Below are positions 17,953 to 41,599 of a DNA stretch of 64,000 nt, one piece after another. The notes under the pieces were generated by a model. It searched no databases, was not told the DNA's origin, and worked only from the letters and a program-made list of their open reading frames with translations. The stretch comes from Chromohalobacter marismortui (lineage in GTDB: Bacteria; Pseudomonadota; Gammaproteobacteria; Pseudomonadales; Halomonadaceae): assembly GCF_004364315.1 (NCBI RefSeq), contig NZ_SOBR01000004.1:62001-126000 (forward strand), in the 5' to 3' direction. The position numbers and the translations under genes are program-made. Each line of letters begins with the position of its first letter. Position 1 is the stretch's first letter.

Positions 17953-18921
17953 ATGAACGATAGTACGCTGTCTCTGTTCGTCAGAGTCACCCAGAAATGC
18001 CAGGAAGCCGAGGATATCGTCAGTTACGAGCTGTCCGATCCTCACGGGCGCCCCCTGCCCGCCTTCAGTGCCGGCGCGCACATCGATGTACGCGTCAAGG
18101 AAGGCGTGATTCGCCAATACTCGCTGTGCGGTCATCCGGAAGAACGTGATCGCTACTTCATCGCCGTCCTGCGCGAGCCCAGCTCTCGTGGCGGCTCGGT
18201 CGCCATGCACGATGAGATCGAGGAGGGCGATCTGCTGCAGATCAGCGCCCCCAAGAACCACTTTCCTCTAGAACCCGCCAAGCGCTCGGTCCTGTTCGCC
18301 GGCGGCATCGGCGTCACGCCGATCCTGTGCATGGCCGAACGTCTGGCGCACACGCAAGCACAGTTCGATATGCATTACTGTTCACGCTCGCGCGAACGCA
18401 TGGCCTTCGTCGACCGCCTTGAGCAATCCGCTTACGCTGATCATGTGCATTTTTATTACGACGATGCGCCCGAGGCCGGCAAGCTGGATGTGGCCACCGT
18501 CGCGGGTGAGCCGAACGACGAGACGCATATCTATGTCTGCGGCCCGGGCGGCTTCATCGATCACGTCATGTCGACCTGCAAGGCGCAGGGCTGGCCGTCG
18601 TCACAATTGCATACCGAGTATTTCAGTGGCGTGGAGACGACCTCCGAGGACGACGAAAGCTTCGACGTGAAAATTGCCAGCAGCGGCGCGACGTTCCCGG
18701 TCCCCAAGGACAAGAGCGTCTACGAGGTGCTGAGCGAAAACGGCGTCGAAATCATGGTGTCGTGCGAACAGGGTGTCTGCGGTACCTGCCTGACGCGCGT
18801 TCTAGAGGGAGAGCCGGATCATCGCGACCTCTACCTCGATGACGATGAACACGCCGCCAACGACCAGTTCACGCCATGCTGCTCTCGCGCCAAGAGCAAG
18901 ACGCTGGTGCTGGATTTGTAA
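17953..18921 (+). CDS. vanB: vanillate O-demethylase, reductase subunit
   Basis: The 322-residue class IA reductase has FMN-binding RQYSLCG at residues 54-60, the NAD(P) region FAGGIGVTPI near 115-124 and YVCGPGGF near 195, and a C-terminal plant-type ferredoxin with Cys271, Cys276, Cys279 and Cys309. It passes electrons from NAD(P)H through FMN and [2Fe-2S] to VanA. It is the second gene of the vanAB operon. A relative with the same domain order is encoded at 26.1-27.1 kb for another oxygenase. Confidence 0.95.
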   Translation: MNDSTLSLFVRVTQKCQEAEDIVSYELSDPHGRPLPAFSAGAHIDVRVKEGVIRQYSLCGHPEERDRYFIAVLREPSSRGGSVAMHDEIEEGDLLQISAPKNHFPLEPAKRSVLFAGGIGVTPILCMAERLAHTQAQFDMHYCSRSRERMAFVDRLEQSAYADHVHFYYDDAPEAGKLDVATVAGEPNDETHIYVCGPGGFIDHVMSTCKAQGWPSSQLHTEYFSGVETTSEDDESFDVKIASSGATFPVPKDKSVYEVLSENGVEIMVSCEQGVCGTCLTRVLEGEPDHRDLYLDDDEHAANDQFTPCCSRAKSKTLVLDL

Positions 18922-26104: not shown

Positions 26105-27079
26105 ATGCCTGACAAATATAAACCGGCGGTGGTGCTCAAGCGACGCGAGCTGACCGATCATATAAGTGAAATCACTCTGGGCTTAGCCGACGACTCACCC
26201 TTGCCGGCGTCCCGAGCAGGTGCGCATGTCGAGCTACGCTTTGGCGGAAACGACGGCCGATTCTTGCGTCATTACTCGCTTATCGGCCCGCTCGATCTCA
26301 CCAGCACTCATGAGCCTTTCTGGCGTATTGCCGTGCAACGTGAAAACCGCCGCCGGGGATCCGATTACATTCATCGGCATTTCAGAGCGGGCACTAACGT
26401 ACTGATATCTCCCGCGCTCAGCCCCTTTCGGCTGACTTCCGATGATGGCCCTGCTTTGCTTATCGCCGGCGGTATCGGCATTACCGCAATCCTCCCCATG
26501 CTGCGCTCCTGCGTGATGCGCCGACGCGATGTCCACATGCTCTATGTCGGGCGCAGCCGTGAGGCCATGGCCTATGTCGAGGAAGCCGAGGCGCTGGGGG
26601 GTGACGCCGTCACCGTGCATGACGCCACGGCGCTCGGAGGTAGGCCCGATCTCGACGCATTGCTCGCTCAGCAGCCCACCAATACCACCGCCTATGTGTG
26701 CGGCCCGCCGGCATTGATCGACGGCACCCGCCAAGCAGCGCAACGATTGGGATGGGCGCCGGAACGCGTGCGTCACGAGATATTCAATGCCGCCCACAAG
26801 GCCGAGGACCATGCCGTTACGGTGCAGACCCGAAGCGGTACGCAGATTCCCGTCTCACCCGGCCATACCTTGTTGGAAGCACTCGAAGCGGCCGGTGCCG
26901 AGACCTTTTCGGACTGCCGCCGCGGAGAGTGTGGCCTGTGCATCACCCCGGTCAGCAGCGTCGATACTGACATCGACCATCGCGATCGCTTTCTCACCCC
27001 CGATCAGAAACGGAGCAATCGGCAAATCGCCTTGTGCTGCTCTCGTCCGCGTTCGGGATCGATTGCACTCGATATCTGA
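26105..27079 (+). CDS. VanB-like oxygenase reductase (FMN, NAD, C-terminal ferredoxin)
   Basis: The 324-residue protein has the same domain order as VanB: LRHYSLIG at residues 54-61 for FMN, LIAGGIGITAIL near 119-130 and YVCGPPALIDG near 197 for the nucleotide, and a C-terminal [2Fe-2S] domain with Cys271, Cys276, Cys279 and Cys311. The next gene, 29 bp downstream, encodes a Rieske oxygenase, so this is its electron donor. TGAGGAG precedes the ATG. It is divergent from the double-HTH LysR gene. The low identity visible between this and VanB argues for a distinct substrate system rather than a recent duplication. Confidence 0.9.
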   Translation: MPDKYKPAVVLKRRELTDHISEITLGLADDSPLPASRAGAHVELRFGGNDGRFLRHYSLIGPLDLTSTHEPFWRIAVQRENRRRGSDYIHRHFRAGTNVLISPALSPFRLTSDDGPALLIAGGIGITAILPMLRSCVMRRRDVHMLYVGRSREAMAYVEEAEALGGDAVTVHDATALGGRPDLDALLAQQPTNTTAYVCGPPALIDGTRQAAQRLGWAPERVRHEIFNAAHKAEDHAVTVQTRSGTQIPVSPGHTLLEALEAAGAETFSDCRRGECGLCITPVSSVDTDIDHRDRFLTPDQKRSNRQIALCCSRPRSGSIALDI

Positions 27080-27108
27080 AAGATAAAAAAATAAAGGAGC
27101 TAACTGCC

Positions 27109-28221
27109 ATGATCCACGCTAGCCAAGCGATACCGCTCAACGACGAAGCCATTTTCGACGCCATGCCCATGGAAGAAGGTGGCCAATTCGCCAATCATGC
27201 CACGCCCCTGATTCGTAACTGCTGGTATGTGTGTGCGCGGCGCGATGAGGTGGGCCGTCAGCCTATCTCACGCCGCCTTCTCGACACGGATGTGGTCATG
27301 TACCGCACCCAAAGCGGCCAGCCGGTAGCCATGCATAATCGCTGTCCGCACCGTGCCTTTCCCCTAGTGAAAGGCCGGGTGGAGGGCGACCGGCTGGTGT
27401 GCGGTTATCACGGCATGGAGTTCGAACCCGACGGGCTATGCGCGCATCTGCCCGCGGTCTCTCATGTACCCGCCAACGCCTGTGTCCAAACCTATCCCAT
27501 TGCCGACCGCGGCCCATTGACCTGGATCTGGATGGGAGATCCCAACCTGGCCGACGAAGCATTGATCCCCGAACTGCCCTGGCTTGCTTCTCCTGAGTGG
27601 GGCAGCGTGACCGGTGGCTTTCATATCAAAACCGACTATGTGTCGATGCATGAAAATCTCATCGATCAGACCCACTTCCCCTTCTTGCATCCAGGCACGG
27701 TGGGGACGCCTGAGTACGCGCGGGCCAGCATGAGTGCCGCCACCGAGGGCAATCAGGTGATGATCAATCGCCGTCTAGACAACGCGCCGCCCCCGGGCAT
27801 TTACGGCAAACCGGCCGATATCATGCACAAGAACGTGGACCGCACCTCCGAGGCACGTTTCGTCTCACCTGCTGTGCATACTGCTCACGCCCAGATCTTC
27901 GATAACTATCCGGAGCCAAGTAAGCCCTCGGTATATGGCTATTACATAACGCATTGCTTCACGCCCGAATCCAACCATTCCATCCACTACTGGTGGTTCA
28001 ATTCGCGCGATTACCGACTTGACGATACCGACATCGATGACTTCATGCGTGATGCGAGTACGCAAGCGTACTATGAGGACGTCGAAGCGCTGGAATGGAT
28101 CATGGACGTCGTGCTGACCGACAAAGAAGCCCAGCAATTCGAGTTGAGTTTCGCGCCCGACAAGCCTGGTTTGATGGCTAGGCGAATCATGCATCGCCTG
28201 GCGATGTCTGAGCGGGGGTAA
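27109..28221 (+). CDS. Rieske non-heme iron oxygenase, probable O- or N-demethylase
   Basis: The 370-residue oxygenase starts behind AAAGGAG. Rieske ligands are Cys79-His81 and Cys98-His101; the iron site is Asn183, Asp186, His189 and His194 (NLIDQTHFPFLH). The family groups with single-component-type oxygenases such as vanillate, dicamba and phthalate-type enzymes, which remove methyl groups or hydroxylate aromatic acids. A formaldehyde dehydrogenase gene converges on it, and a gallate operon lies 6 kb away. A demethylase for syringate, 3-O-methylgallate or another methoxy compound is therefore plausible, but the sequence does not prove it. Confidence 0.87.
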   Translation: MIHASQAIPLNDEAIFDAMPMEEGGQFANHATPLIRNCWYVCARRDEVGRQPISRRLLDTDVVMYRTQSGQPVAMHNRCPHRAFPLVKGRVEGDRLVCGYHGMEFEPDGLCAHLPAVSHVPANACVQTYPIADRGPLTWIWMGDPNLADEALIPELPWLASPEWGSVTGGFHIKTDYVSMHENLIDQTHFPFLHPGTVGTPEYARASMSAATEGNQVMINRRLDNAPPPGIYGKPADIMHKNVDRTSEARFVSPAVHTAHAQIFDNYPEPSKPSVYGYYITHCFTPESNHSIHYWWFNSRDYRLDDTDIDDFMRDASTQAYYEDVEALEWIMDVVLTDKEAQQFELSFAPDKPGLMARRIMHRLAMSERG

Positions 28222-28359: not shown

Positions 28360-29547
28360 TCATGCCGCGCCCAATAGCCCATGCGGGTCCAGCACGAACT
28401 TGCTGGCCACACCGGAATCGAATTGCTGATAACCTTGCGGCGCGTCTTCCAGGGAAATGACCTGAGCATTGACGATCTCGGCGATATTAAGTCGTCCGTG
28501 CAGAATCGCCTGCATCAACTGGCGGTTGTACTGCACCACCGGCGTCTGCCCGGTGTGGAAGGAATGTCCCTTGGCCCAGCCCAGGCCGAAGCGCAGGCTG
28601 AGATTGCCACTCTGGGCCGCTTTCTCGGTGGCGCCGGGATCTTCAGTGACATAAAGACCCGGAATGCCGATCGAGCCGGCCTCGCGAGTGACCTCCATCA
28701 TCTGGTTGAGCACCACCGCCGGTTGCTCCTTGCCGCCATGGCCCACCGCTTCGAAGCCGACGGCGTCGATGGCACTGTCGACCTTCGGCTCGCCCACCAC
28801 GGCAGCGATCATCTCGCCCAGGCGATCGTGACGGTTCAAGTCGATGGGCTCGAAGCCCATCTTGCGGGCATGCTCCAGACGCTGCTGGTTGAAGTCTCCG
28901 ATCATGACCACCGCGGCCCCCAGCAGGTGCGCCGATGCCGCCGCGGCAAGCCCCACCGGGCCGGCCCCCGCGACATAGACCGTCGAGCCCGGGCCCACCT
29001 TGGCATTCAAGGCACCATGGAAGCCGGTCGGCAGGATATCGCTCAACATCGTCAGGTCGCGGATCCTGTCCATCGCCTGGTCGCGATCCGGGAACTTAAG
29101 CAAGTTGAAGTCGGCATATGGCACCATGACATAGTGCGCCTGGCCACCGACCCAGCCGCCCATGTCGACGTAGCCGTACGCCCCGCCGGCACGCTCGTCG
29201 TTGACGTGCAGACACAGCCCGGTATGCCCTTCTTTGCAGGTGCGACAGCGGCCACACGCAACGTTAAATGGCACCGAGACCAGGTCGCCGATATCGAGGA
29301 ACTCGACGTCCTTGCCCTTCTCGATGACCTCGCCGGTGATTTCGTGGCCCAGCACCATGCCCGCTGGCGCCGTCGTGCGGCCACGTACCATGTGCTGGTC
29401 GGAACCGCAGATATTGGTGGAGACCACATTGAGGATCACGCCATGCTCAATGGCCTTGCCACTCGGCGCTTGCATCCTGGGGTAAGCAATGTCTTGAACC
29501 TCGACCTTGCCGGGCCCGGTATAGACGACACCACGATTGTTAGCCAT
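28360..29547 (-). CDS. fdhA: glutathione-independent formaldehyde dehydrogenase
   Basis: The 395-residue MDR protein starts at MANNRGVVYTGPGKVEV and is close to Pseudomonas putida FdhA (about 399). Catalytic zinc ligands Cys47, His68 and Glu69 and structural zinc cysteines 98, 101, 104 and 112 are present; the cofactor motif GAGPVGLAAAASA follows. This enzyme converts formaldehyde to formate by an internal dismutation with tightly bound NAD. It lies 83 bp downstream of the dctM gene on the same strand and is probably in the same transcript. Formaldehyde is produced by VanAB and probably by the neighbouring Rieske oxygenase, which explains its place here. Confidence 0.92.
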   Translation of the reverse strand: MANNRGVVYTGPGKVEVQDIAYPRMQAPSGKAIEHGVILNVVSTNICGSDQHMVRGRTTAPAGMVLGHEITGEVIEKGKDVEFLDIGDLVSVPFNVACGRCRTCKEGHTGLCLHVNDERAGGAYGYVDMGGWVGGQAHYVMVPYADFNLLKFPDRDQAMDRIRDLTMLSDILPTGFHGALNAKVGPGSTVYVAGAGPVGLAAAASAHLLGAAVVMIGDFNQQRLEHARKMGFEPIDLNRHDRLGEMIAAVVGEPKVDSAIDAVGFEAVGHGGKEQPAVVLNQMMEVTREAGSIGIPGLYVTEDPGATEKAAQSGNLSLRFGLGWAKGHSFHTGQTPVVQYNRQLMQAILHGRLNIAEIVNAQVISLEDAPQGYQQFDSGVASKFVLDPHGLLGAA

Positions 29548-29630
29548 CTTCGACCTCTCTTGCTGAGAATGGGCCGATACCGCCCCCGGTATCGGCATAG
29601 CGGGACCGGCGCCCACCTGACGCATGGCAC

Positions 29631-30935
29631 CTAGTCCATCATCGTATCGGGAAGAAACAGCACGATTTCAGGGAACACGATCAGCAGTCCGATGGCCGCG
29701 ATCATCACCAGCCAGAACGGCATGACGCCCTTGAAGATGTCGCGCAGCGGCACGTTGGGCGCCACGGACTTGACGATGAAGACGTTCACGCCCACTGGCG
29801 GACTGATCAGTCCCATTTCCAGTGTCAGCACCACCAACACGCCGAACCAGATGGGATCGAACCCCAACTGGGTAATCACCGGGAAGAAGATCGGCATGGT
29901 CAGCACCAGCATCGCGAACCCTTCCAGGAAGCATCCCAACACCAGGTAGCAGGCCAGGATTATGAGCAGGACCCCATACGGCCCGATATCCAAGCCTATC
30001 AAGAAATCACCCAGCGCTTGGGGGATATGGCTCAAGGCCAGAAAGGGGTTGAGCATATGCGCGGCGATCAGAATCAGCATCACGGTCGCCGTCGTGGTGA
30101 TCGAACTTTGTGCTGCCCGCCAGAAAGACGCCAGCGTCAGCTTGCGCATGGCGGCACCGAAGAGGATCGTCAGCCCGGCACCCACCGCAGCAGCTTCCAC
30201 CGGCGAGAAGATCCCCGAATAGATACCGCCGATCGTCAGCAAAATGATGATCAAGATCGGTGTCGCGCCTAGAAGCCCTTGTTGCTTCTCTCGCCAAGAC
30301 GTCTTGGGTCCGGAGGGCGCCAGCGTCGGCTTGATAGTGGCCAACACCATGATCAAGATGACAAATAGCAAACACAGCATGATCCCCGGTAACACGCCCG
30401 CCAGAAACAGGCGTCCAATGGACTGCTGCGTCAAGATGGCGTAGATCACGAAGCCGGTCGAGGGCGGAATGAGAATCCCCAACGTCCCCCCCGCAGCCAC
30501 CGCCCCCGTCGAGAGCTTGGCACTGTAATTAAAGCGCTCCATTTCGCTGAGCGAGACACGGCCCATGGTCAACGCCGAGGCCACGGAAGAGCCGCATAAC
30601 GCGGCAAATCCCGCGCACCCCACCACCGTGGCTGACGCCAGGCCACCGCGTACGGAACCGATGAGCGCATAAGCCGCGTCATAAAGCTTGCGGCTCATCC
30701 CTGACTCGGTGGCGATATTACCCATCAATATGAACAAGGGAATGACGATCAACTCAGCATTCGAGACGATGGTAAAGGTTTCACTGGCCAACAAGCTCAA
30801 CGCTGAGTTGAGACTATCGAGCAAGGCAATGCCGCCGAACCCGACGACGAATATTGCAAAGGCCACGGGGATTCGCAGTACCAAAAGCGCAAATAGCACC
30901 AAGATGCCCAAGGCACCCACCAGCTCGGTACTCAT
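29631..30935 (-). CDS. TRAP transporter large permease (DctM)
   Basis: The 434-residue protein has around 12 hydrophobic segments and DctM landmarks: GCAGFAALCGSSVASALTMG near residue 108, AAGGTLGILIPPSTGFVIYA near 148 and LITPPVG-type LISPPVGVNVFIV near 382. It forms the ion-driven transport channel of a tripartite carboxylate transporter. Its ATG overlaps the stop of the small-permease gene by four bases. The operon order dctP-dctQ-dctM-fdhA suggests import of a methylated organic acid whose demethylation yields formaldehyde; the ligand itself is unknown. Confidence 0.92.
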   Translation of the reverse strand: MSTELVGALGILVLFALLVLRIPVAFAIFVVGFGGIALLDSLNSALSLLASETFTIVSNAELIVIPLFILMGNIATESGMSRKLYDAAYALIGSVRGGLASATVVGCAGFAALCGSSVASALTMGRVSLSEMERFNYSAKLSTGAVAAGGTLGILIPPSTGFVIYAILTQQSIGRLFLAGVLPGIMLCLLFVILIMVLATIKPTLAPSGPKTSWREKQQGLLGATPILIIILLTIGGIYSGIFSPVEAAAVGAGLTILFGAAMRKLTLASFWRAAQSSITTTATVMLILIAAHMLNPFLALSHIPQALGDFLIGLDIGPYGVLLIILACYLVLGCFLEGFAMLVLTMPIFFPVITQLGFDPIWFGVLVVLTLEMGLISPPVGVNVFIVKSVAPNVPLRDIFKGVMPFWLVMIAAIGLLIVFPEIVLFLPDTMMD

Positions 30936-31459
30936 AAATCCTCTTCCTTTTGCGGAGCCGCGCGGCTATAGGAGGGGGTCAATAACGTTTTGACGATACG
31001 CGTCAGGATGGAAAGTGCCGTCAAGAAGGCAAAAAACGCCACGATGTATTGGAATGGCGCCTTGGGTATGCCAATGATGTTGGTACTCAAGTTGAGTAAT
31101 TTCGACATTTCCGCCGCACCGAGCATCGTGTAGCCAATCGCCGTGAAGATGGCACACCCCAGCACCCAGCCCGCGATATCCAGCCAATAATTCATTCGCG
31201 CGGGAAACTTATTCTCGAAGATATCCACAGCGATGTTGCCGCCCTGCTGATCGCAAAGCGCCATACCGCCGAACACAATGATGACCATGGTCATTTGCGA
31301 TAGATCCTGCCCCCCTGTCAGAGGAGCACCAAAAAAGCGCCCTGTGACGTCTACCACAGTCACTAGAACCGCGAAAATCAGGGCAAGAGTACCGACGACA
31401 CTGGAAAGATTCACAAACCTATCCAGTGTCCGGGTCACCTGCGTGAGAAAGTGACTCAT
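30932..31459 (-). CDS. TRAP transporter small permease (DctQ)
   Basis: The 175-residue protein has four membrane segments, with the DctQ pattern VDVTGRFFGAPLTGGQDLSQ near residue 38 and FGGMALCDQQGGNIAVDIFE near 66. The start at MSHFLTQ follows GGGGAG; a GTG at 31477 would overlap the binding-protein gene and is less likely. It couples the binding protein to the large permease. Genes are tightly packed with dctP and dctM. Confidence 0.88.
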   Translation of the reverse strand: MSHFLTQVTRTLDRFVNLSSVVGTLALIFAVLVTVVDVTGRFFGAPLTGGQDLSQMTMVIIVFGGMALCDQQGGNIAVDIFENKFPARMNYWLDIAGWVLGCAIFTAIGYTMLGAAEMSKLLNLSTNIIGIPKAPFQYIVAFFAFLTALSILTRIVKTLLTPSYSRAAPQKEEDL

Positions 31460-31466
31460 AGGCGGT

Positions 31467-32462
31467 TCACTCCCCACGCATGGCGTTTAGCACGTCCTCA
31501 GTCCCCTTATCCGCCAAACGCTGCTTGCGGAAGGTATCGGCGATGGCCTCGAACTTTGCAATTTCTTTATCGCTGAGTTCGATCACCGTATTGTCGGGAT
31601 CCTCACGCAATGCCTTGAGCGTTTCATTGGCACGTTCATTCCAGCCTTGTTCCCCGCTACGTGATAGCTTCATTCCGCTATTGTCATCGATAGCCTGCTG
31701 GAACTCAGGGGAAAGGCTGGCGTATTTCTTCTGATTCATGGCTAGATAAAACATGATATGGCCCAGTGGCGCACCCACCGAATATACGTTGGCCACTTCA
31801 TCGAGCTTGAAATCGTTCACGGCACTCGCGCCGGTGACCAAGCCATCGATGAGACCGGTTTGCAGCGCGTTATAAACCTCGCCGGCAGGCATTTGCACGG
31901 GCGTGCCGCCATAGGCATCGATCAATGCTGCCGTCATTTCTCCCGAAACACGAATCTTTAATCCCTCGAGATCTGCCGGATTATGGATTTCTTTATCTTT
32001 CATTATGAAAATGCTGGGCTCGCTGGTCCAAAGTGCCAAAGGCTTAGTGCCAGGAAATTCACTTTTTAGATGCTCATCATAGGCATTCCAGAGCATCTCA
32101 TAACCATGCATTCCTTCTGGAATCGCCCCCGGCATTTCCACGACCATCGACTTCTTGAATTGTGACGAGGTATACCCTGGAATCCCCCAGACGATATCCG
32201 CCACGCCCTGTAGCACTCGCGGATACTGCTCCTTGGGGCCCGAACCCAACTCACCGCCTGGATAGACGTTGATTTTCAATTCACCATTCGTTTGTTCTTC
32301 AACCCCTTCCTTCAGGGGATAAACGATGGCGCTATTGACGACATGCGCCGGCGCGACGAAGTGAGCAAGCTTCAAGGTCTCAACGGCATTGGCACCTGCA
32401 CTGAGAGCCATCGCCACGCCAGCCGTCAGTGTTAGCAGGGTGCGGTTTTTTAACGTTTTCAT
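31467..32462 (-). CDS. TRAP transporter periplasmic binding protein (DctP)
   Basis: The 331-residue protein has a signal peptide ending at ANAVET near residue 27 and a DctP fold with the conserved arginine segment in EGLKIRVSGEMTAALIDAYGG near residue 168, where the arginine normally pairs with the substrate carboxylate. LQTGLIDGLVTG follows. It differs clearly from the three DctP proteins at 46-53.6 kb. It is encoded just downstream of the double-HTH LysR gene and upstream of dctQ, dctM and fdhA. The ligand is probably an aromatic or methylated acid by context. Confidence 0.9.
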   Translation of the reverse strand: MKTLKNRTLLTLTAGVAMALSAGANAVETLKLAHFVAPAHVVNSAIVYPLKEGVEEQTNGELKINVYPGGELGSGPKEQYPRVLQGVADIVWGIPGYTSSQFKKSMVVEMPGAIPEGMHGYEMLWNAYDEHLKSEFPGTKPLALWTSEPSIFIMKDKEIHNPADLEGLKIRVSGEMTAALIDAYGGTPVQMPAGEVYNALQTGLIDGLVTGASAVNDFKLDEVANVYSVGAPLGHIMFYLAMNQKKYASLSPEFQQAIDDNSGMKLSRSGEQGWNERANETLKALREDPDNTVIELSDKEIAKFEAIADTFRKQRLADKGTEDVLNAMRGE

Positions 32463-32612: not shown

Positions 32613-33875
32613 CTATCCCGTACACGTGCGAATAAGCGAGGTAGGATCGGCCATGCGCTCACCCAGCGCCAGCAAGATGTCTTTGAGCACCTTCAAAGCC
32701 TGGGTCGGGGAATCATCGGCACGCGTGGTGATGCCGATCGGGCGTAGAGTGCCCGTCAGTTTGATGGGCAGCAGCGCCAGCTGGCCGCTTTGCACCTCGA
32801 AGAACACCTGATGGGGCGACACCAGGGTCACGCGATCGCTATCCAGCAGTAGGGTACGAATCGTACTGAGATTGCCGGACTCCACTACCACCGAGGGTGT
32901 CGTCAGGCCAGCGCTGCGGAACTCCTGCTCGAAGCTCACCCGCGCTGGCGTACCTTGTCGCGGCGCGATCCACTGTGCATCGAGCAGATCACACAGTTGC
33001 AACGAGGCATGTTGCATTAAAGGGTGGTCGTGGCGCGCCGCGACGGCGAGGCGATCATGGAAAAGGCGCTGTTGGTGGGTGTCTTCGCTGGTCCCCGCTT
33101 GGCGTAGCGCTCCGATAAGGATATCGATCTCGCCATGACGCAACGATTCGAACAACGCATCGTAGGTCCCCTCGATAATCGTCACGTTCAACCCCGGCAA
33201 CTCACGCAACAAGGCATCCACGGCATGTGGTACCAATAGCGAGCTGGAGAGTGGCAAGGTGCCGATCACTACCCGCCCACGCACTTCGCCCTGCCAGGCG
33301 GAAAGATCGTCGCTGACCAGGGACAGCTCTCGCAGCGCCACCTTGAAATGACGAATCAACACCGCGCCGCCATCCGTCGCCAGCATGCCGCGTTGCGTGC
33401 GCAGGAAGAGCGACACGCCCAGCAGGCGTTCCAGGTCGCGCAGATTGCCGCTGACCGCCGGCTGGGTCAATCCCAGGCGTTTGGCCGCCAGGGGCTCGTT
33501 ATGCAGGTCGGCGACGGCCACCAGCACCGTCAACTGACGATGCGACAAGCGTTGCGGGAGGCGCTCGAAATTGCCCTCGGGGTGCAGACGTGCCAGCGCG
33601 GTCTCGGCTTCGATCAATTGCTGCAAGGCACGCCGGAAGCGATGCAGGACTATCTTCCCCGCCGTGGTGCATAACATGCCGCTGCGATGGCGCTCGAACA
33701 GCGCCAGGCCGAGTTCCTTTTCCAGGTCGCGTACCGCCCGCGTCACGGCGGGTTGCGATAGATGAAGCGTCTCGGCCGCCCGCATCACGCTGCCCGCCTC
33801 GGCCACCGCGATGACCGCGCGCAAGCGCCGCATGTTGGGTGCGTACTCGAATGCCTCGCGATGCAGTTCGGTCAT
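32613..33875 (-). CDS. LysR-family regulator with two tandem helix-turn-helix domains, gallate-operon candidate
   Basis: The 420-residue protein starts at MTELHREAFEY, six bases after AAGGGG. Residues 15-75 form one LysR DNA-binding domain (AAETLHLSQPAVTRAVRDLEKELGLALFERH) and residues 110-172 a second (AAKRLGLTQPAVSGNLRDLERLLGVSLFLRT). An effector domain follows from about residue 205. It is divergent from galB, with 199 bp between start codons and a LysR-type box between them, and lies upstream of the TRAP-fdhA genes on its own strand. It is therefore the likely regulator of gallate catabolism, uptake or both. The double DNA-binding architecture matches the gene at 24.7-26.0 kb. Confidence 0.87.
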   Translation of the reverse strand: MTELHREAFEYAPNMRRLRAVIAVAEAGSVMRAAETLHLSQPAVTRAVRDLEKELGLALFERHRSGMLCTTAGKIVLHRFRRALQQLIEAETALARLHPEGNFERLPQRLSHRQLTVLVAVADLHNEPLAAKRLGLTQPAVSGNLRDLERLLGVSLFLRTQRGMLATDGGAVLIRHFKVALRELSLVSDDLSAWQGEVRGRVVIGTLPLSSSLLVPHAVDALLRELPGLNVTIIEGTYDALFESLRHGEIDILIGALRQAGTSEDTHQQRLFHDRLAVAARHDHPLMQHASLQLCDLLDAQWIAPRQGTPARVSFEQEFRSAGLTTPSVVVESGNLSTIRTLLLDSDRVTLVSPHQVFFEVQSGQLALLPIKLTGTLRPIGITTRADDSPTQALKVLKDILLALGERMADPTSLIRTCTG

Positions 33876-33963
33876 GGCCGACCCCTTCGACATGAATCGC
33901 TGCCTAGCATGCCGCACGTCGTCGTCGCGCGATATGCCATAAAGGGCGCATGCCAAGCACCTA

Positions 33964-34074: not shown

Positions 34075-34815
34075 ATGACTGTCGCGTCTTCTTCTCCCGC
34101 TGGCCTGGTGGTCAGCGCACATTCGGCGGATTTCGTATGGCGGGCGGGCGGCGCCATTGCCCTGCATGCCCGGCAGGGCTATGCCATGCATATCGTCTGC
34201 CTGTCGTTCGGCGAGCGGGGCGAATCCGCCAAGTTGTGGCGCCAGGGGAACATGAGCGAGGCAAAGGTCAAGGCGGCCCGCCGCGAGGAAGCCGAAGCGG
34301 CCGCCGCAGCCCTGGGCGCCACGGTCGAATTCTTCGATATCGGCGATTATCCCATGCGCGCCGACAAGGACACGCTATTCCGACTCGTCGATGTCTATCG
34401 CCGTGTGCAGCCCGAGTTCGTGCTCACGCATTCGCTCAAGGATCCCTACAACTACGATCACCCGCTCGCCACCGATCTCGCCCAGGAAGCCCGCATCATC
34501 GCGCAGGCCGAGGGCCACAATCCCGGCGAGACCATCGTCGGTGCCCCGCCCGTCTATTGCTTCGAGCCGCACCAGCCGGAGCAATGCCAGTGGCGTCCCG
34601 ACGTACTGCTCGACATCACCGAGGTATGGGACGACAAGTACCGCGCGATTCAGTGCATGGCCGGGCAGGAACACCTGTGGGAATACTATACCCGCGTCGC
34701 CCTGCAACGCGGCGTGCAGGCCAAGCGCAACATCGGCATCACCGCGCAGAAGAACATCCAGTATGCCGAGGGCTATCAAAGCATCTTCCCCCGCGTCACG
34801 GAGAATCTGGCATGA
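34075..34815 (+). CDS. galB: 4-oxalomesaconate hydratase (PIG-L/LmbE-type)
   Basis: The 246-residue protein belongs to the PIG-L zinc family, with [15 protein letters not shown] at residues 15-29 in place of the common AHPDDE, and the later zinc-binding region [14 protein letters not shown] near residue 122. This variant motif is that of GalB of Pseudomonas putida, a hydratase of 4-oxalomesaconate to 4-carboxy-4-hydroxy-2-oxoadipate. It is the first gene of the gallate operon and overlaps galC by four bases. The combination with galC, galD and galA makes the assignment strong. Confidence 0.9.
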
Positions 34816-35546
34816 CGACCTCTCTGGAAACCCCCGGCATCGTCGTACGCGACATTCCCCGGGCCAAGCGCGAACACATCGATGCCCTCGGCGAAGAGGG
34901 CGTCGCCACCGTGCATGAAGCCCAGGGCCGCAAGGGACTGCTCGACCCCGCGATCCGCCCCATTCAGCAGGATCGCGGCATCAGCGGCTCGGCGGTGACC
35001 GTGCTGGTCTCGCCCGGCGACAACTGGATGTTCCACGTCGCCGTGGAGCAGTGCCAGCCCGGCGACATCCTCGTGGTGGCCACGCGCTCGCCCTGTATCG
35101 ACGGCTATTTCGGTGACCTGCTGGCCACCTCGCTGCAGGCCCGTGGCGTGCGCGGCCTGGTCCTCGACGGCGGCGTGCGTGACACGCGCACCCTGCGCGA
35201 CATGGGCTTCGCCGTCTGGTCGCGCGCCGTGCATGCCCAGGGCACCGTCAAGGAGACCCTGGGCTCGGTAAACATTCCCGTCGTCTGCGCCGGCCAGTGG
35301 ATCAATCCCGGCGATATCGTCATCGCCGACGACGACGGGGTGGTCGTGGTGCGTCGTGACGAAGCCGACAGCGTGGTCACCGCCAGTCGCAAGCGCGCCA
35401 CCGCCGAGGAAGACAAGCGCGTGCGCCTGGCCAATGGCGAACTGGGCCTCGACATCTACGACATGCGCCAGCGCCTCGCCGACAAGGGACTGACCTATTA
35501 CGACGATCCGCAGGCGCTGGCGCGTGCCATGGAGTCCTCGTCATGA
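34812..35546 (+). CDS. galC: 4-carboxy-4-hydroxy-2-oxoadipate aldolase (HMG/CHA aldolase, RraA fold)
   Basis: The 244-residue protein has the RraA-fold active site of class II HMG/CHA aldolases: Asp102 in DGYFGDLLA and Arg123-Asp124 in [15 protein letters not shown]. It cleaves 4-carboxy-4-hydroxy-2-oxoadipate to pyruvate and oxaloacetate with a divalent metal. The ATG overlaps the galB stop (ATGA) and its end overlaps galD. Although the frame is open further upstream, that part is out of phase with galB and is not used. It completes the shared lower route for gallate and protocatechuate 4,5-cleavage. Confidence 0.92.
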
Positions 35547-36655
35547 GCCAGACGCGCATCCCGTGTCTGCAGATGCGCGGCGGCACCTCGAAGGGGCTGT
35601 ACTTCCTCGCCGAGGACCTTCCCCGCGACGCCGCCCGGCGCGATGCGGTGTTGCTCGCCGCGATGGGCTCACCGGATGCGCGTCAGATCGATGGCCTGGG
35701 CGGGGCGACCTCGCTGACCAGCAAGGTCGCGATCGTCGACCGCCCGACTCGCGACGACGTGGATGTGGACTACCTGTTCGCCCAGGTCGTCGTTGATGCC
35801 CCACGCGTCGACTATGGCCAGAACTGCGGCAACATCCTCGCCGGCGTCGGCCCCTTCGCCATCGAGCGCGGTTGGGTGACGGCATGCGACGGCACGACGC
35901 CGGTACGCGTGCACATGGTCAACACCGGCCAGGTGGCGATCATCCATGTCCCGACGCCTGGCGGGAGCGTCGAATACGCCGGCGACGCCCAGATTTCCGG
36001 CGTGCCGGGCAGTGCCGCCCCCTTGATCGTCGAATTCCAGGATACCGCCGGCTCGAGCTGTGGCGCCCTGCTGCCCACCGGCCAGCCCCGCGATACCGTC
36101 GAGGGCATCGACGTGACCTGTCTCGATAACGGCATGCCGGTGGTCCTGCTGCGTGCCGAGGATCTCGGCGTCAGCGGCCACGAAAGCTGCGCTGACCTGG
36201 AGGCCAATACCGCGCTGCGGGAACGCCTCGAACGCATTCGCCTGGCGGTGGGGCCGTGCATGAATCTGGGTGACGTCAGCGAACGCACCGTCCCCAAGAT
36301 GACCCTCGTCGCCGCGCCTCGGCATGGCGGCAGCCTCGCCACGCGCTCGTTCATTCCACATCGCTGCCACGACGCCATCGGCGTACTCGGCGCGGTCAGC
36401 GTGGCCAGCGGCTGCCTGGTACCGGGCACCGTGGCCGAGGGGCTGGCGGTGCTGAACGAGGGACCGACACAGCGCCTGTCGATCGAGCACCCGACCGGCG
36501 AGTTCACCGTCGAGCTGACCCGTGACGCGGACGGCGAGATCGTCCGCGCGGGACTGCTGCGCACCGCCCGACTGCTCTTCGAAGGCCACTTGCATGTGCC
36601 GCGTGCCGTCTGGAATGGCGACACCGCGGCCCACTCCAACGGAGCCGCTTCATGA
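35543..36655 (+). CDS. galD: 4-oxalomesaconate tautomerase (PrpF family)
   Basis: The 370-residue PrpF-type isomerase has [12 protein letters not shown] at residues 10-21 and [20 protein letters not shown] near residue 93, the two conserved halves of the active site, plus GPCMNLGD in the C-terminal half. GalD converts the keto form of oxalomesaconate to the enol form needed by GalB. It overlaps galC upstream and the alpha/beta hydrolase gene downstream by four bases each, so the operon is translationally coupled. Confidence 0.92.
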
Positions 36656-37365
36656 CATCCGTCCCGCTATTGCCGCTGCCGGGCCTGCTGTGCGACGACG
36701 CCGTCTGGACCGAGGTGCGCGAACATCTCGTCGCCCCCACACTGCCCACGCCCGACTACGGCATGGCCGATTCCATCGGTGCCATGGCCGACATTGCCTT
36801 GCAAGACGCGCCCGAGCGCTTCATCGCGGTGGGCCATTCCATGGGCGGCCGCGTCGCCCTCGAGATCCAGCGACGCGCACCGCAGCGTCTCGCGGGCCTG
36901 GCGCTGCTGGATACCGGCTTCCGCGGTCGGGCGGCGGGAGAAGCGGGCCAGCGCGAACGCGAAAACCGTCACGCGCTGCTGGCCAAGGCCCGCCAGGACG
37001 GGATGCGCGCGATGGGCGGCACCTGGCTGCAAGGCATGGTGCACCCCGAACGCCTCGACGACGAAACACTCGTCGAGGCGATTCTGGCGATGATCGAGCG
37101 CAAGGATCCCGACACCTTCGCCGCCCAGATCGACGCGCTGCTGGCCCGTCCGGACGCCACCGAGCAACTGGCCGGCATCGCCTGCCCGACCCTGCTGCTG
37201 TGCGGACGCCAGGATGCCTGGAGTCCGCTGGAACGCCACGAGGAAATGGCGGGGCTGATTCCCGGCAGCCGTCTCGAGGTCATCGAGGAGGCCGGCCACA
37301 TGAGTCCCATGGAGCGCCCCGCCGCCGTCGCCCGGGCGCTCGACCACTGGAGAAACCACGCATGA
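36652..37365 (+). CDS. alpha/beta hydrolase inside the gallate-lig operon, substrate unknown
   Basis: The 237-residue protein has a standard alpha/beta-hydrolase layout without a large cap: oxyanion region PGLLCDDAVW near residue 10, nucleophile AVGHSMGGRVAL (Ser near residue 63), acid in GRQDAWSPLE and histidine in EEAGHMSPMERP near residue 221. It overlaps galD and the next gene by four bases, so it belongs to the pathway. Neither gallate nor protocatechuate 4,5-cleavage uses a known enzyme of this family in pseudomonads. It could hydrolyse a lactone (2-pyrone-4,6-dicarboxylate) or a methyl ester from 3-O-methylgallate cleavage, or de-esterify a gallate ester. Confidence 0.85.
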   Translation: MTSVPLLPLPGLLCDDAVWTEVREHLVAPTLPTPDYGMADSIGAMADIALQDAPERFIAVGHSMGGRVALEIQRRAPQRLAGLALLDTGFRGRAAGEAGQRERENRHALLAKARQDGMRAMGGTWLQGMVHPERLDDETLVEAILAMIERKDPDTFAAQIDALLARPDATEQLAGIACPTLLLCGRQDAWSPLERHEEMAGLIPGSRLEVIEEAGHMSPMERPAAVARALDHWRNHA

Positions 37366-37817
37366 CCGCCTTGTCCCACGAAGCCCGAGCGGCCATCGAA
37401 CAGGCCTGCACCCGCCTGGTCCTCGATGCCGCCGCCGCCACCGACCGTCAGGACTATGCCGGCCTCGTGGCGCTTTTCACGCCGGACGGCCAGCTGTTTC
37501 GGCCCACCGCTCCCGAGGAACCGCTCGCCGGGCGCGACGCGATCCTGGCAAGCTACCAGGCACGCCCGGCACAGCGCATCACGCGGCATTTCTGCAGCAA
37601 CATCCGTGTCCAGGTGGAAAGCGCCGAGCGCGCGCGAGTCAGTACCTATGTGCAAGTTTTCGCCGCCGACACCCAATACGCGCCGGACGGCCACTTCGGC
37701 TGGCCGTTGGCAGGCCGCACCATGATCGGTGAATTCGACGACCTGTGCGTCCTCGATCAGGGTGCCTGGCGCTTTGCGGAGCGCCACGCACGTTTCGTCA
37801 TGCATCGCGATGGCTGA
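37362..37817 (+). CDS. SnoaL-like / NTF2-fold protein in the gallate-lig operon
   Basis: The 151-residue protein has the NTF2-like pattern of small hydratases, isomerases and ring-hydroxylating beta subunits: ALSHEARAAIEQACTRLVLD, ALFTPDGQLFRP and a C-terminal WRFAERHARFVMHRDG. The start overlaps the stop of the alpha/beta hydrolase gene. No catalytic residue can be named. Its position suggests a role on a ring-opened or hydrolysed intermediate, perhaps a tautomerase or hydratase, or a bile-acid-dehydratase-like function. I do not recognise a specific family member. Confidence 0.75.
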   Translation: MTALSHEARAAIEQACTRLVLDAAAATDRQDYAGLVALFTPDGQLFRPTAPEEPLAGRDAILASYQARPAQRITRHFCSNIRVQVESAERARVSTYVQVFAADTQYAPDGHFGWPLAGRTMIGEFDDLCVLDQGAWRFAERHARFVMHRDG

Positions 37818-37876: not shown

Positions 37877-38233
37877 ATGTCGGATACACAAGAGCGCTGG
37901 GGCATTCCCGGCACCTATGTCTTCGATCTCACGCTCTCGCGGCAAGGGTATGCCATCAACAAGATGTGCAACTCGCTCAAGTTCGACGAGAACCGCGAGG
38001 CCTTCAAGGCCGATGAAGAAGCCTATATGGAACGCTATGGCTTGTCGGAAGAACAGAAACAGGCCATTCGCGAGCGTGACTGGCTGCGCCTGACCCAGCT
38101 CGGCGGCAATCTGTTCTTTTTCCTCAAGCTTGGCGCCACCCTGGGCTACGGGCTTTACACCATCGGCGCACAGATGCGTGGCGAGAGCTACGAACAGTTC
38201 ATGTCCACCCGCAACGTGCCAGGAGCAACCTGA
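37877..38233 (+). CDS. ligA: protocatechuate 4,5-dioxygenase, alpha (small) subunit
   Basis: The 118-residue all-helical protein matches LigA: PGTYVFDLTLSRQGYAINKMCNSL at residues 11-34, EEQKQAIRERDWLRLTQLGGN in the middle, and a C-terminal MRGESYEQFMSTRN. It caps the active site of the beta subunit. AAGGGAG precedes the ATG. It lies 59 bp after the SnoaL gene and overlaps ligB by one base. A homologous segment is fused to the C-terminus of GalA two genes downstream. Confidence 0.92.
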   Translation: MSDTQERWGIPGTYVFDLTLSRQGYAINKMCNSLKFDENREAFKADEEAYMERYGLSEEQKQAIRERDWLRLTQLGGNLFFFLKLGATLGYGLYTIGAQMRGESYEQFMSTRNVPGAT

Positions 38234-39078
38234 TGGGCAAGATCGTCGCCGGTATCGGCTCCTCCCATGTGCCCTCCATAGGGCGCGCCTACGACCAGCA
38301 GAAACAGACCGACCCCGCCTGGCAGCCTCTCTTCGACGGTTACGAACCCGTCAAGCGCTGGCTGGCCGAGGAGGTCAAGGCCGATGTCGTCATCCTGGTC
38401 TACAACGATCACGGCACCGAGTTCTTCCTCGATTGCTACCCCACCTTCGCGCTGGGTGTCGCCGACAGCTACGCCGTGGCAGACGAAGGCTACGGTAAAC
38501 GCCCCCTGCCGGACTTCCCCGGGGATGCCGCCTTTTCCGAGCATCTCGCCAACCATCTGGTCTCCGACGAGTTCGACCTGACCTTGTGCCAGGAAATGGC
38601 CCTGGACCATGGCTTCCTCACCGCCATGCCCCTGCTCTGGGATCACGACGACACTGCCTGGCCGGTCAAGGTCGTGCCGCTGCTGGTCAACGTCATCCAG
38701 CACCCTCTGCCCACCGGCCAGCGCTGCTTCAAGCTGGGCGAGGCCATTCGGCGCGCCGTCGAGGCCTACCCCGAGGACACGCGCGTCGTGGTGGTCGGCA
38801 CCGGCGGTCTCTCGCACCAGCTCAATGGCGAGCGTTTCGGACACATCAACGAAGAGTGGGACAAGCAGTGGATGCAGCGCATTCAGGACGAACCCCGCGA
38901 GCTTGCCGCCCTGTCGCACAAGGAGGTCATGACGGAGGCCGGCGCCGAGGGTGGTGAAGTCATCATGTGGTTCGTGATGCGCGGTGCCATGACCGAACGC
39001 GTCGAGGAGGTGCATCGCTTCTACTACGCCCCGATGACCACCGGCATCGGCCTGCTCGCGCTCAACAACAGCGACTGA
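38233..39078 (+). CDS. ligB: protocatechuate 4,5-dioxygenase, beta (catalytic) subunit
   Basis: The 281-residue extradiol dioxygenase has the LigB iron ligands His12 (SSHVPS), His60 (YNDHGTEFF) and Glu242 (GGEVIMW), and the catalytic base His195 (GGLSHQ). It inserts O2 next to a hydroxyl of protocatechuate to give 4-carboxy-2-hydroxymuconate-6-semialdehyde; LigAB enzymes also accept gallate and 3-O-methylgallate. The follow-on enzymes LigC and LigI are not in this window. Translation is coupled to ligA through TGATG. Confidence 0.93.
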   Translation: MGKIVAGIGSSHVPSIGRAYDQQKQTDPAWQPLFDGYEPVKRWLAEEVKADVVILVYNDHGTEFFLDCYPTFALGVADSYAVADEGYGKRPLPDFPGDAAFSEHLANHLVSDEFDLTLCQEMALDHGFLTAMPLLWDHDDTAWPVKVVPLLVNVIQHPLPTGQRCFKLGEAIRRAVEAYPEDTRVVVVGTGGLSHQLNGERFGHINEEWDKQWMQRIQDEPRELAALSHKEVMTEAGAEGGEVIMWFVMRGAMTERVEEVHRFYYAPMTTGIGLLALNNSD

Positions 39079-39105: not shown

Positions 39106-40392
39106 ATGGCACGCATCGTCGGCGGACTCGCCGTATCCCACACCCCAACCATCGGCTTCGCCGTCGATCATGAGAAGCAGGAAGAAGACGCCTGGGCACC
39201 GATCTTCGAGAGCTTCGCGCCGATGACGCAGTGGCTGCAGGACAAGCGCCCTGACGTACTCTTTTACATCTTCAACGATCATGTGACGTCGTTTTTCTTC
39301 GACCACTACTCCGCCTTCGTACTCGGCATCGACGACCATTACGAGGTCGCCGACGAAGGCGGCGGGCCACGCGACCTGCCCGGCATCGGCGGGCACGCGG
39401 CGCTGTCTCGCCATATCGGCGAGAGCCTGATGGCGGATGAGTTCGACATGTCGTTTTTCCAGGACAAGCCGCTCGACCACGGCCTTTTCTCGCCCATGTC
39501 GGCGCTGCTGCCGTTCGAGGATGGCTGGCCGGTCGATGTTGTGCCCCTCCAGGTGGGCGTCCTGCAATTCCCGATCCCCAGCGCGGCGCGTTGCTACAAA
39601 CTGGGGCAGGCGCTGCGCCGTGCCATCGAGAGCTATCCGGACGGTCTCGACGTGGCCATCGTCGCCACCGGCGGCGTTTCGCACCAGGTGCACGGCGAGC
39701 GCGCCGGCTTCAACAACCCGGAGTGGGATGCGCAGTTCCTAGACCTGCTGGTCAATGACCCACAACAGCTCACCCAGATGACCCAGGCGGAGTTCGCCAC
39801 CCTGGGCGGCCTGGAAGGTTCGGAAGTGATCACCTACCTGATCATGCGCGGCGCGTTGTCCCACACCGTGATCAAGCGCCACCAGGATTATTACCTGCCG
39901 TCGATGACCGGGATCGCCACCCTGATCCTCGAAAATCAGGCGCAGCCCAACCCTATCGATCTAAGCGAGCGCTATCGTCAACACAGCCGCCATCAACTGG
40001 CCGGCATCGAGGCGCTGGAAGGCACCTACCCGTTCACGCTCGAACGCAGCCGCAAGGGCTATCGCATCAATCGCTTCCTGCATCGGCTGATCGAGCCCGA
40101 CTGGCGCGAGCGCTTTCTCGCCGATCCCGAAGCGCTCTTCGAGGAGGCGGCACTCAGCGAGGAGGAACGCCGCCTGATTCGCGAGCGCGACTGGCGGGGC
40201 ATGATCCATTATGGCGTCATCTTCTTCCTGCTGGAGAAACTCGGGGCCGTCATCGGCACCTCCAATCTCCATATCTATGCCGCCATGCGCGGCGAGAGCC
40301 TGGAAGAATTCCAGAAGACTCGCAATCAGCAGGTCACCTACTCCGTGGCTCGACGTCGAGATACCGACGACGCATCCTCGGCAGAGACTTGA
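39106..40392 (+). CDS. galA: gallate dioxygenase (fused LigB-LigA domains)
   Basis: The 428-residue protein has an N-terminal extradiol domain with iron ligands His12, His59 and Glu240 and base His193, followed from about residue 300 by a LigA-like helical domain (YPFTLERSRKGYRINRFLHRL, then EEERRLIRERDWRGMIHYG and MRGESLEEFQKTRNQ). The length is that of GalA/DesB-type gallate dioxygenases (about 420). It opens the gallate ring to 4-oxalomesaconate, which GalD, GalB and GalC convert to pyruvate and oxaloacetate. An ACGAGG site precedes the ATG, 27 bp after ligB. Confidence 0.93.
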   Translation: MARIVGGLAVSHTPTIGFAVDHEKQEEDAWAPIFESFAPMTQWLQDKRPDVLFYIFNDHVTSFFFDHYSAFVLGIDDHYEVADEGGGPRDLPGIGGHAALSRHIGESLMADEFDMSFFQDKPLDHGLFSPMSALLPFEDGWPVDVVPLQVGVLQFPIPSAARCYKLGQALRRAIESYPDGLDVAIVATGGVSHQVHGERAGFNNPEWDAQFLDLLVNDPQQLTQMTQAEFATLGGLEGSEVITYLIMRGALSHTVIKRHQDYYLPSMTGIATLILENQAQPNPIDLSERYRQHSRHQLAGIEALEGTYPFTLERSRKGYRINRFLHRLIEPDWRERFLADPEALFEEAALSEEERRLIRERDWRGMIHYGVIFFLLEKLGAVIGTSNLHIYAAMRGESLEEFQKTRNQQVTYSVARRRDTDDASSAET

Positions 40393-40432: not shown

Positions 40433-41599
40433 ATGGTTCATAAAAAGGCAATCGCTTATTCAGTGTCATTCGCCGCTTTTCTAGGCCCTTTTACGCAAAC
40501 CGTCTACGTTCCCATCCTTCCCGAACTGCAGGATACGCTGGCCACCAGCCAGCTACTCATCAATGCCAGCATTTCAGTATTCACCTTCATCATCGCCTTC
40601 ATGCAGATCCTCTACGGTCCGCTGACCGACACCTGGGGGCGCAAGAAGGTGCTGCTGCCCGGCATCGCCCTCTATGTCGGAGCCTCGATCGGCTGCTTCT
40701 ACGCCGACCACATCGCCTCATTGCTCTTCTTTCGCGTGTTCCAGGCCGTGGGCATCGCGACGGGGTCAGTGGTCGCCGTGACCGTCATCGGCGATCTTTT
40801 CCAAGGCGAGGAACGCCTCAAGGCAATGGGCACCTTCCAGATGCTGGTCGCGCTCGGCCCCGTCATCGGCCCAGTGGCGGGGGGCTTCATCGCCGGACAA
40901 CTCGACTATCATTACGTCTTTTTGGCGCTGGCCATCGCCGGGGGGCTGATCGGCACCCTCAACTGGGCTTTGCTTCGGGAAACCAAGCCCGCCGGCCCCG
41001 CGCGCAGGATCGACATGGCCGAATACGCACGCATCGCGCGTGACCGCCAGGGGCTGACCATCGGTATTCTGGGCTTTGTGCAGTTCTATATTTACTACAA
41101 TTTCCTGGTCTATCTGCCGGTGATCCTCGACCAGGGCTACACGCTCTCGGTGGCCCAGAAAGGGCTGATGTTCTTACCGCTTTCCGTCGCCTTGGTACTG
41201 GGAAGCTTCCTGAGTAGCCGTGTGCAAAAGCGCCTCTCGACGGAAAGCCTGCTGGTGATCACTGCCTTGCTGTGCGCCATCGATGTCGTGGCTTTTCTTG
41301 TCACGGCGACGCACTCGCTGACGCTGCTCATCGCGACAACATTCCTATTCGGATTGCTGTTGGGCCTGTCGCTTCCCGCGCAGACCGCGCTGCTGACGCG
41401 CGTCTTCGTCACCCACCGCGCCACCGCCGTGGGGCTTTATAACTTCTTCCGCTTCATGGGCATGGCCAGCGGGCCGTTTCTCGGCGCTTTGCTCTTCGGC
41501 CTCGGCGGCCTCACGCTTCTGTTCAGCATCGCCGCCCTGCTTTTCCTGCTCATCGCTCTGCTCACCCGACGCAATCTGATGCCCGCCCGGCCCCACTAG
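40433..41599 (+). CDS. MFS transporter, 12 membrane segments (Bcr/CflA-like)
   Basis: The chosen ATG gives 388 residues and begins at MVHKKAIAYSVSFAAFLGPF; the frame is open upstream but overlaps galA. Twelve hydrophobic segments and the DHA1 signature GPLTDTWGRKKVLLPG between helices 2 and 3 are present. The protein resembles drug:H+ antiporters rather than the aromatic-acid symporters. Placed 40 bp after galA, it could export a toxic intermediate or import gallate. Direction and substrate are unknown. Confidence 0.85.
   Translation: MVHKKAIAYSVSFAAFLGPFTQTVYVPILPELQDTLATSQLLINASISVFTFIIAFMQILYGPLTDTWGRKKVLLPGIALYVGASIGCFYADHIASLLFFRVFQAVGIATGSVVAVTVIGDLFQGEERLKAMGTFQMLVALGPVIGPVAGGFIAGQLDYHYVFLALAIAGGLIGTLNWALLRETKPAGPARRIDMAEYARIARDRQGLTIGILGFVQFYIYYNFLVYLPVILDQGYTLSVAQKGLMFLPLSVALVLGSFLSSRVQKRLSTESLLVITALLCAIDVVAFLVTATHSLTLLIATTFLFGLLLGLSLPAQTALLTRVFVTHRATAVGLYNFFRFMGMASGPFLGALLFGLGGLTLLFSIAALLFLLIALLTRRNLMPARPH

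Follow-up and report, generated by a model that had tools for sequence, protein, structure and literature searches.

We analysed a 64,000-nucleotide stretch of the Chromohalobacter marismortui genome (contig NZ_SOBR01000004.1; hereafter the window), in which adjacent genes encode an alpha/beta hydrolase and a SnoaL-like protein. This pair probably provides the MgaC/MgaD step in the 3-O-methylgallate (3MGA) branch of a linear syringate pathway; we put the probability of this at a little over 80%. Gene content, gene order, conservation, co-occurrence, gene fusion and residue patterns were observed, and every reaction is inferred by analogy with Pseudomonas sp. NGC7, for which Ookawa et al. (2025) describe a linear pathway through VanA1B1, MgaAB, MgaC and MgaD, then GalD, GalB and GalC (PMC12314914). 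In that report MgaAB is LigAB-like, MgaC is an alpha/beta hydrolase (PSN_2689) and MgaD is SnoaL-like (pfam13577; PSN_2687). The gene kinds that the window has in common with the NGC7 set are: VanAB; FdhA; the LigAB type; the hydrolase; SnoaL_4; and GalBCD.

By this analogy, a VanAB-type O-demethylase would convert syringate to 3MGA and formaldehyde, and FdhA could oxidise the formaldehyde. A split LigAB-type (MgaAB-like) dioxygenase would open the 3MGA ring next to the methoxy-bearing carbon to give the methyl ester CHMOD, which the hydrolase, using Ser63 aided by His216 and Asp188, would cut into methanol and CHMA. The cut would precede the spontaneous closure of CHMOD to the lactone 2-pyrone-4,6-dicarboxylate (PDC), which the genome seems unable to open. 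The SnoaL-like protein would isomerise CHMA to 4-oxalomesaconate (a prediction in NGC7 as well), and GalD, GalB and GalC would carry this to pyruvate and oxaloacetate. In NGC7, MgaC is reported to de-esterify CHMOD, the ring-fission product of 3MGA, and an mgaC mutant did not grow on syringate and formed PDC at 95% (PMC12314914).

The pair follows ligAB, not galA. Among 201 genomes of the family (thresholds: E 1e-8 for SnoaL, 1e-20 for the hydrolase, 1e-6 for the alpha subunit), the SnoaL protein matched 9 (one a 39-residue fragment with a stop), the hydrolase 12 (four at only 37-40% identity) and the LigA-type alpha subunit 9 (one at 47% identity, in a genome that lacks the pair). The same eight genomes, including that of the window, hold the hydrolase at at least 65%, the SnoaL protein at at least 69% and the alpha subunit at at least 91% identity, and only two of them have the one-chain gallate dioxygenase type, which the alpha-subunit search would also reveal. 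Both genes of the pair are real, being conserved in the seven other genomes (identity to the window 65-98% for the hydrolase, 69-95% for SnoaL). These are not eight independent events, since five are from one genus (Chromohalobacter, going by L004, L005, L007 and L008); five other sampled Chromohalobacter genomes lack the hydrolase, the SnoaL protein and the alpha subunit. In the examined stretches of the eight family loci, ligAB and a VanA-type gene were present in all and galBCD in seven (not L006).

The genes that carry the proposed pathway are:

34075..34815, + strand: galB, GalB-like hydratase (family match to PIG-L, to which we take GalB to belong; name from position)
34812..35546, + strand: galC, 4-carboxy-4-hydroxy-2-oxoadipate aldolase (NF006731, 390.2 bits, cut-off 179)
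35543..36655, + strand: galD, 4-oxalomesaconate tautomerase (NF033377, 537 bits, cut-off 440)
36652..37365, + strand: alpha/beta hydrolase, MgaC-like, predicted CHMOD methylesterase (237 residues; Abhydrolase_6; conserved near ligAB)
37362..37817, + strand: SnoaL_4/NTF2-fold protein, MgaD-like, predicted CHMA isomerase (tautomerase) (151 residues; PF13577; fusions in three genomes)
37877..38233, + strand: LigA-type alpha subunit (MgaA-like), with Leu93 at the LigA Phe103 position (profile match, alignment)
38233..39078, + strand: LigB-type beta subunit (MgaB-like), class III extradiol dioxygenase (profile match)
39106..40392, + strand: GalA, one-chain gallate dioxygenase (NF009904, 823.3 bits, cut-off 412; Glu at the DesB Glu377 position)
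26105..27079, + strand: VanB-type reductase (profile match)
27034..28221, + strand: VanA-type Rieske oxygenase, presumed O-demethylase (VanA_C, PF19112)
28360..29550, - strand: FdhA, glutathione-independent formaldehyde dehydrogenase (TIGR02819, 717.7 bits, cut-off 636.95)

The order on the + strand is thus galB-galC-galD-hydrolase-SnoaL, then split ligA/ligB, galA and a major facilitator superfamily (MFS) gene. ATGA overlaps join galB/galC, galC/galD, galD/hydrolase and hydrolase/SnoaL (taking the galC start as 34812). The original prediction placed the pair between galD and ligA with such overlaps; the position and the overlaps up to SnoaL are as described, but SnoaL and ligA are separated by a 59-base gap, with the purine-rich AAAAAGGGAG preceding the ligA ATG. 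It also assigned the pair to a gallate operon, which is half right: galBCD and ligAB accompany it across the family, but the one-chain gallate dioxygenase mostly does not. Lack of conservation beside lig or gal genes had been named as the refuting outcome, and the pair proved to be conserved beside ligAB.

The hydrolase (36652-37365) matches Abhydrolase_6 (PF12697; 64.5 bits, cut-off 26.3), and alpha/beta-hydrolase families were its only matches in the Pfam profile scan, without the Amidohydro_2 domain of LigI. Its predicted triad is Ser63 (in GHSMGG), Asp188 and His216; in an alignment of 52 hydrolases, where the N-terminal part of two fused rows (L009, L064) had been cut off, these are kept in 50, 52 and 52 rows, respectively. 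Trp190, Ser191 and His62 mark the ligA-linked hydrolases, occurring in 25, 25 and 23 of 25 rows (a set that includes L061 and leaves out L085 and L088) versus 5, 5 and 9 of the 27 others. The best NCBIfam matches are the enol-lactonases PcaDC and PcaD. Identity with PcaD itself (3-oxoadipate enol-lactonase) was rejected, the TIGR02427 score of 88.8 bits being far below the cut-off of 255.85, as was a BphD-type ring-fission product hydrolase (TIGR03343, 31.3 bits, cut-off 462.15). The closest solved sequence in the PDB is the Thermogutta terrifontis esterase 4uhc (E 5e-25), and the matches include 7dq9, a chain titled type-A feruloyl esterase.

The SnoaL_4 protein (37362-37817) matches PF13577 at 66.5 bits (cut-off 24). 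Asp28, Arg47, His76, Asn80, Asp127 and Arg141 are kept in 21/21 SnoaL sequences; this conserved acid-base set plus arginines fits a tricarboxylate substrate, with residue roles that are putative. Structure models of the two proteins were middling (mean predicted local distance difference test scores of 62.5 and 69.5, with seven close sequences each). The hydrolase model has an alpha/beta hydrolase fold (nearest 3bdi, Z 14.4, root-mean-square deviation 3.2, 157 aligned) and the SnoaL model an NTF2 fold (nearest the putative scytalone dehydratase 3ef8, Z 9.6, root-mean-square deviation 4.2, 112 aligned, with ties within 1). For both proteins, the fold comparison of these models only repeats the Pfam assignment.

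LigI is an amidohydrolase, not an alpha/beta hydrolase. No Amidohydro_2 (LigI-type) match was found in the window's genome (99.99% complete) by a search that finds matches in other genomes, so a LigI-type enzyme would not be available to open PDC that arises from CHMOD. Likewise, no match was found there to PF19858, with G205 as the positive control; the identification of this family as PmdC-type rests on structure 9azo. With both families absent, the usual means of completing protocatechuate 4,5-cleavage would be lacking. The window has protocatechuate 3,4-dioxygenase genes at 43297-44742 and, as a side observation, a fused PcaD-PcaC (PcaDC) protein at 53701-54870 (NF051488, 423.1 bits, cut-off 390). 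Among the seven other pair-bearing family genomes, five have a PF19858 match (that of G019 being 46% identical to the PmdC-type protein of L059) and six have Amidohydro_2 matches (1-7 each, assigned at family level). The LigI-type absence therefore holds only for the window's genome (G000) and G085.

The ring-opening enzyme was compared with LigA, in which Phe103 is reported to govern selectivity at substrate C5, and active variants with V, T, L or H there can prefer the bulkier substrates gallate and 3MGA (PMC10094722). The window's alpha subunit has Leu93 in place of this Phe, and it scores 85.6 bits against the protocatechuate 4,5-dioxygenase alpha model TIGR02792, below the cut-off of 108.6. 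Leu alone does not point to 3MGA, because the active LigA mutants favour gallate as well (PMC10094722). Where ligA is no more than 5 kb from the hydrolase gene (24 loci), the residue is Leu in 11, Met in seven, Val in four, Thr in two and Phe in none. Of 61 plasmid records that matched, seven loci with clusters annotated as protocatechuate 4,5-dioxygenase served as controls, in stretches of 10-12 kb. A PmdC-type gene lies close to ligA in every one of them, six have Phe at the position and one has Met, and none of the stretches has a hydrolase or SnoaL match (E 1e-4); the alpha/beta hydrolase annotated in L133 is unrelated. L078, from a genome without the pair, likewise has Phe. Val occurs in L081, in second copies in L060 and L133, and in three further ligA-linked loci outside the 52 hydrolase loci described below (L038, L043, L047). 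Met does not separate protocatechuate from 3MGA, since Met-bearing clusters also hold PmdC-type genes (L051, L052, L054, L055, L056, L105, L138). Glu377 of DesB is described as corresponding to LigA Phe103 (PMC3962378); the two do not share a column in our sequence alignment, despite that stated correspondence, and the window's GalA keeps Glu at the DesB position. Overall, the split LigAB-type enzyme is probably not a protocatechuate specialist, and 3MGA would fit as its substrate.

Beyond the family, 45 of 390 genomes sampled from the order have a hydrolase match at E 1e-25; 42 of these are outside the family, of which 19 were examined (L048-L066). Further hydrolase loci came from G101 (L067), from plasmids (five loci, L084-L088; 52 plasmid records matched; L089 has a SnoaL match only) and from 20 stretches (L104-L123) comprising 17 of 36 Pseudomonadaceae matches (L104-L119, L123) and three of four weaker Halomonadaceae matches (L120-L122). 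RsmY is a Pseudomonas marker, and the Pseudomonadaceae set of 398 genomes was reached through a search for it; the 36 match at E 1e-25, the best listed at 43-46% identity, with none shown to be the NGC7 gene. Across the resulting 52 hydrolase loci, the window included, the SnoaL gene is the direct neighbour of the hydrolase gene in 18 and is farther away in the same stretch in three; 24 have an alpha-subunit gene no more than 5 kb off.

In the tree, 18 hydrolases (L106-L123) group on a single branch (100/100), and none of their stretches matches ligA, ligB or SnoaL, so homologues in general should not be called MgaC. All 24 ligA-linked hydrolases fall outside that branch, together with seven unlinked ones (L048, L059, L062, L063, L065, L086, L104). 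The tree's lig-linked label is loose for L061, L085 and L088, which have no ligA within 5 kb: there is none in the stretches of L061 and L085, and in L088 it is 11.8 kb off.

Two unrelated kinds of O-demethylase accompany the pair: the VanA type in the family and a desA type in sphingomonad plasmids. In three of the latter loci (L084, L085, L088) a desA-type gene is next to the hydrolase gene, the SnoaL gene is 3-8 kb away, and tetrahydrofolate and methionine-synthase-type genes surround the pair. The US6-1 proteins are 45% (hydrolase) and 37% (SnoaL) identical to those of the window, and the US6-1 desA product passes both the syringate O-demethylase model (849.9 bits, cut-off 800) and the LigM model (634.7, cut-off 580).

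Hydrolase and SnoaL domain form one open frame of ~390 residues in three genomes of two lineages: L009:9278-10438 (Halomonas sp. McH1-25, i.e. G125); L064, at about 9450-10620 (G481); and L043 (G367). G481 and G367 share a genus with G295, where the two genes are separate (L066). The fusion ties the hydrolase and the SnoaL protein to one task, without saying which.

Several points weigh against assigning the pair to 3MGA. The likeness to MgaC and MgaD is one of family and gene context, and very different hydrolases can be assigned the CHMOD role, NGC7 MgaC and DesC being only 13% identical (PMC12314914). The fdhA gene is in the stretch of only three of the eight family loci (the window, L004, L005), and outside the family a VanA-/DesA-type gene matching our queries was found in only eight of the 26 stretches whose hydrolases fall outside the 18-member branch. 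Phe occupies the LigA position in L088 and in L126 (G205), where ligA is 11.8 kb and ~15 kb from the hydrolase gene, respectively; these alpha subunits are the nearest to the hydrolase seen there. A PmdC-type gene is also present in eight hydrolase stretches, and the dioxygenase in those may serve protocatechuate too. Finally, L104 and L086, described below, indicate that the hydrolase subfamily is not tied to 3MGA alone.

As side observations, L104 (8598-14448) and L063 combine a homologous hydrolase with VanA-, VanB- and FdhA-type genes and no ligAB; L104 also holds a Phenol_MetA_deg gene and a glyoxalase-fold protein that may be an extradiol dioxygenase of type I. In L086 the homologous hydrolase is beside an hpaD gene. 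It is possible, if rather doubtful, that the hydrolase is one member of a broader, unnamed subfamily that cuts the methyl esters arising from ring fission of methoxy-catechols, working with various ring-opening enzymes (the LigAB type, perhaps glyoxalase-fold and HpaD types) and channelling with a SnoaL partner, fused in some species, to outrun ester closure to dead-end PDC.

Other explanations of the pair were weighed. The SnoaL-like protein could be a subunit or helper of the hydrolase and not a separate isomerase; we consider this unlikely, although not negligibly so. The fusions and the adjacency in 18/52 loci are in its favour, as is NGC7, where an mgaD mutant still reaches about half the final density and the isomerase role is a prediction too (PMC12314914). 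Against it, the six invariant residues are kept as in an active site, the nearest folds to the model include dehydratases and LinA (Z under 10), and the SnoaL gene is apart from the hydrolase gene in the three sphingomonad loci. It is less probable still that the pair's substrate is a different methoxylated ring-fission ester, one that does not come from 3MGA; L104 and L086 would suit this, but galBCD of the same operon process 4-oxalomesaconate, the expected 3MGA product, and homologues adjoin desA.

The original prediction had also proposed that the hydrolase opens PDC in place of LigI, which we now regard as very improbable. The missing Amidohydro_2 gene and the enol-lactonases among the best NCBIfam matches speak for it. 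However, the PcaD score is far too low, and homologues share their stretch with LigI-type amidohydrolase genes in L051, L054, L055, L056, L061, L087, L088 and L105 (labelled by family and position; the L087 gene scores below the cut-off of the NCBIfam model that it matches best). A further PDC hydrolase would be superfluous there. Moreover, NGC7 reportedly leaves PDC unused without MgaC and does not convert it with MgaC (PMC12314914). Least probable of all is the release of gallate from gallate esters to feed the gallate dioxygenase, for which the esterase fold, the downstream galA and the 7dq9 match could be cited, since the pair tracks ligAB, gallate dioxygenase occurs in only two of the eight genomes, and the SnoaL partner and fusions would be left unexplained.

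The MgaC/MgaD assignment thus retains the two other roles that had been proposed, methyl-ester removal after 3MGA ring opening by the hydrolase and product isomerisation by the SnoaL protein, both of which agree with the NGC7 pathway; the earlier view that such a pair has no place in pseudomonad pathways no longer holds after the 2025 report (PMC12314914). The pair is most likely a further example of the kind described there, not a new pathway. Its spread beyond Pseudomonas is not new in itself, since the gene set already has reported homologues in Gammaproteobacteria and further classes, although the main text names neither Halomonas nor Chromohalobacter (PMC12314914). Judged by titles and abstract openings, none of the publications listed for either genus with syringate, 3-O-methylgallate, gallate dioxygenase or ligAB concerns this locus; weak growth on syringate is reported for a marine Halomonas isolate (PMC7540876). 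What is new here is the compact form of the operon, its occurrence in halophiles, the association of the pair with the ligAB type and not with galA, and the hydrolase-SnoaL fusions. The assignment would extend to halophilic Chromohalobacter and Halomonas a route for syringyl-lignin fragments that was established by genetics in a single Pseudomonas; the natural fusions offer a handle on the predicted isomerase step; and, in a strain that lacks a LigI-type gene, removal of one gene might allow PDC to be produced from syringate.

Further genes of the locus and its surroundings are:

40433..41599, + strand: MFS transporter (family match; scan from 40472)
29631..32462, - strand: tripartite ATP-independent periplasmic (TRAP) transporter (DctM, DctQ, DctP), possible substrate importer (DctQ by position and similarity only)
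32613..33881, - strand: LysR-family regulator, GalR-like by position, divergent from galB (two HTH_1 matches)
16815..18921, + strand: second VanA/VanB-type pair (profile match)

On the divergent side of galB are the LysR gene, the TRAP transporter and fdhA, with the VanB/VanA-type pair farther off. The two VanA genes (in the pairs at 16815-18921 and 26105-28221) are the only PF19112 matches in the window's genome. Relatives of DctM, 72-78% identical, lie near the pair in L061, L064 and L066, which suggests that the TRAP transporter imports syringate or 3MGA. A second LysR gene at 24734-26161 also has two HTH_1 matches, so that the DNA-binding part is apparently doubled in both regulators. A gene resembling flavin adenine dinucleotide-dependent aromatic hydroxylases (23081-24685) is not far upstream of the VanAB-type pair at 26105-28221. 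In L067, from another genus of the family (G101), the hydrolase is 98% identical to that of the window, versus 84-94% within the window's own genus. The other operon proteins of L067 are 95-98% identical to the window's, no closer than those of L004, in which ligA is 100% identical; a greater similarity to G101 than to the window's genus is confined to the hydrolase and, by a narrow margin, the SnoaL protein. This hints weakly at a possible transfer.

Among known enzymes, LigI, the PDC hydrolase, feeds the same product, 4-oxalomesaconate. PcaD has the same fold as the hydrolase and is among its best-scoring curated families, yet the score is far under the cut-off. The 4uhc esterase is from a thermophile, unlike the window's hydrolase, and to our knowledge has no link to the pathway. 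DesC and DesD of Novosphingobium aromaticivorans DSM 12444 (Saro_2864, Saro_2865), which are proposed to convert CHMOD to the same compound, 4-oxalomesaconate (PMC8091115), resemble the pair in proposed role. The closest parallel is NGC7: in both, a hydrolase and SnoaL-like (pfam13577) pair is encoded with a split LigAB-type dioxygenase, vanAB, galBCD and fdhA, and the report found no LigI in NGC7 either (PMC12314914). The arrangement differs. In NGC7, one operon (VanR2) comprises vanA1B1 with mgaABCD and a second (GalR) comprises galBCD-fdhA2 (PMC12314914), whereas here the hydrolase and SnoaL genes follow galBCD in one overlapping gene run, with galA, the TRAP transporter and a LysR gene nearby.

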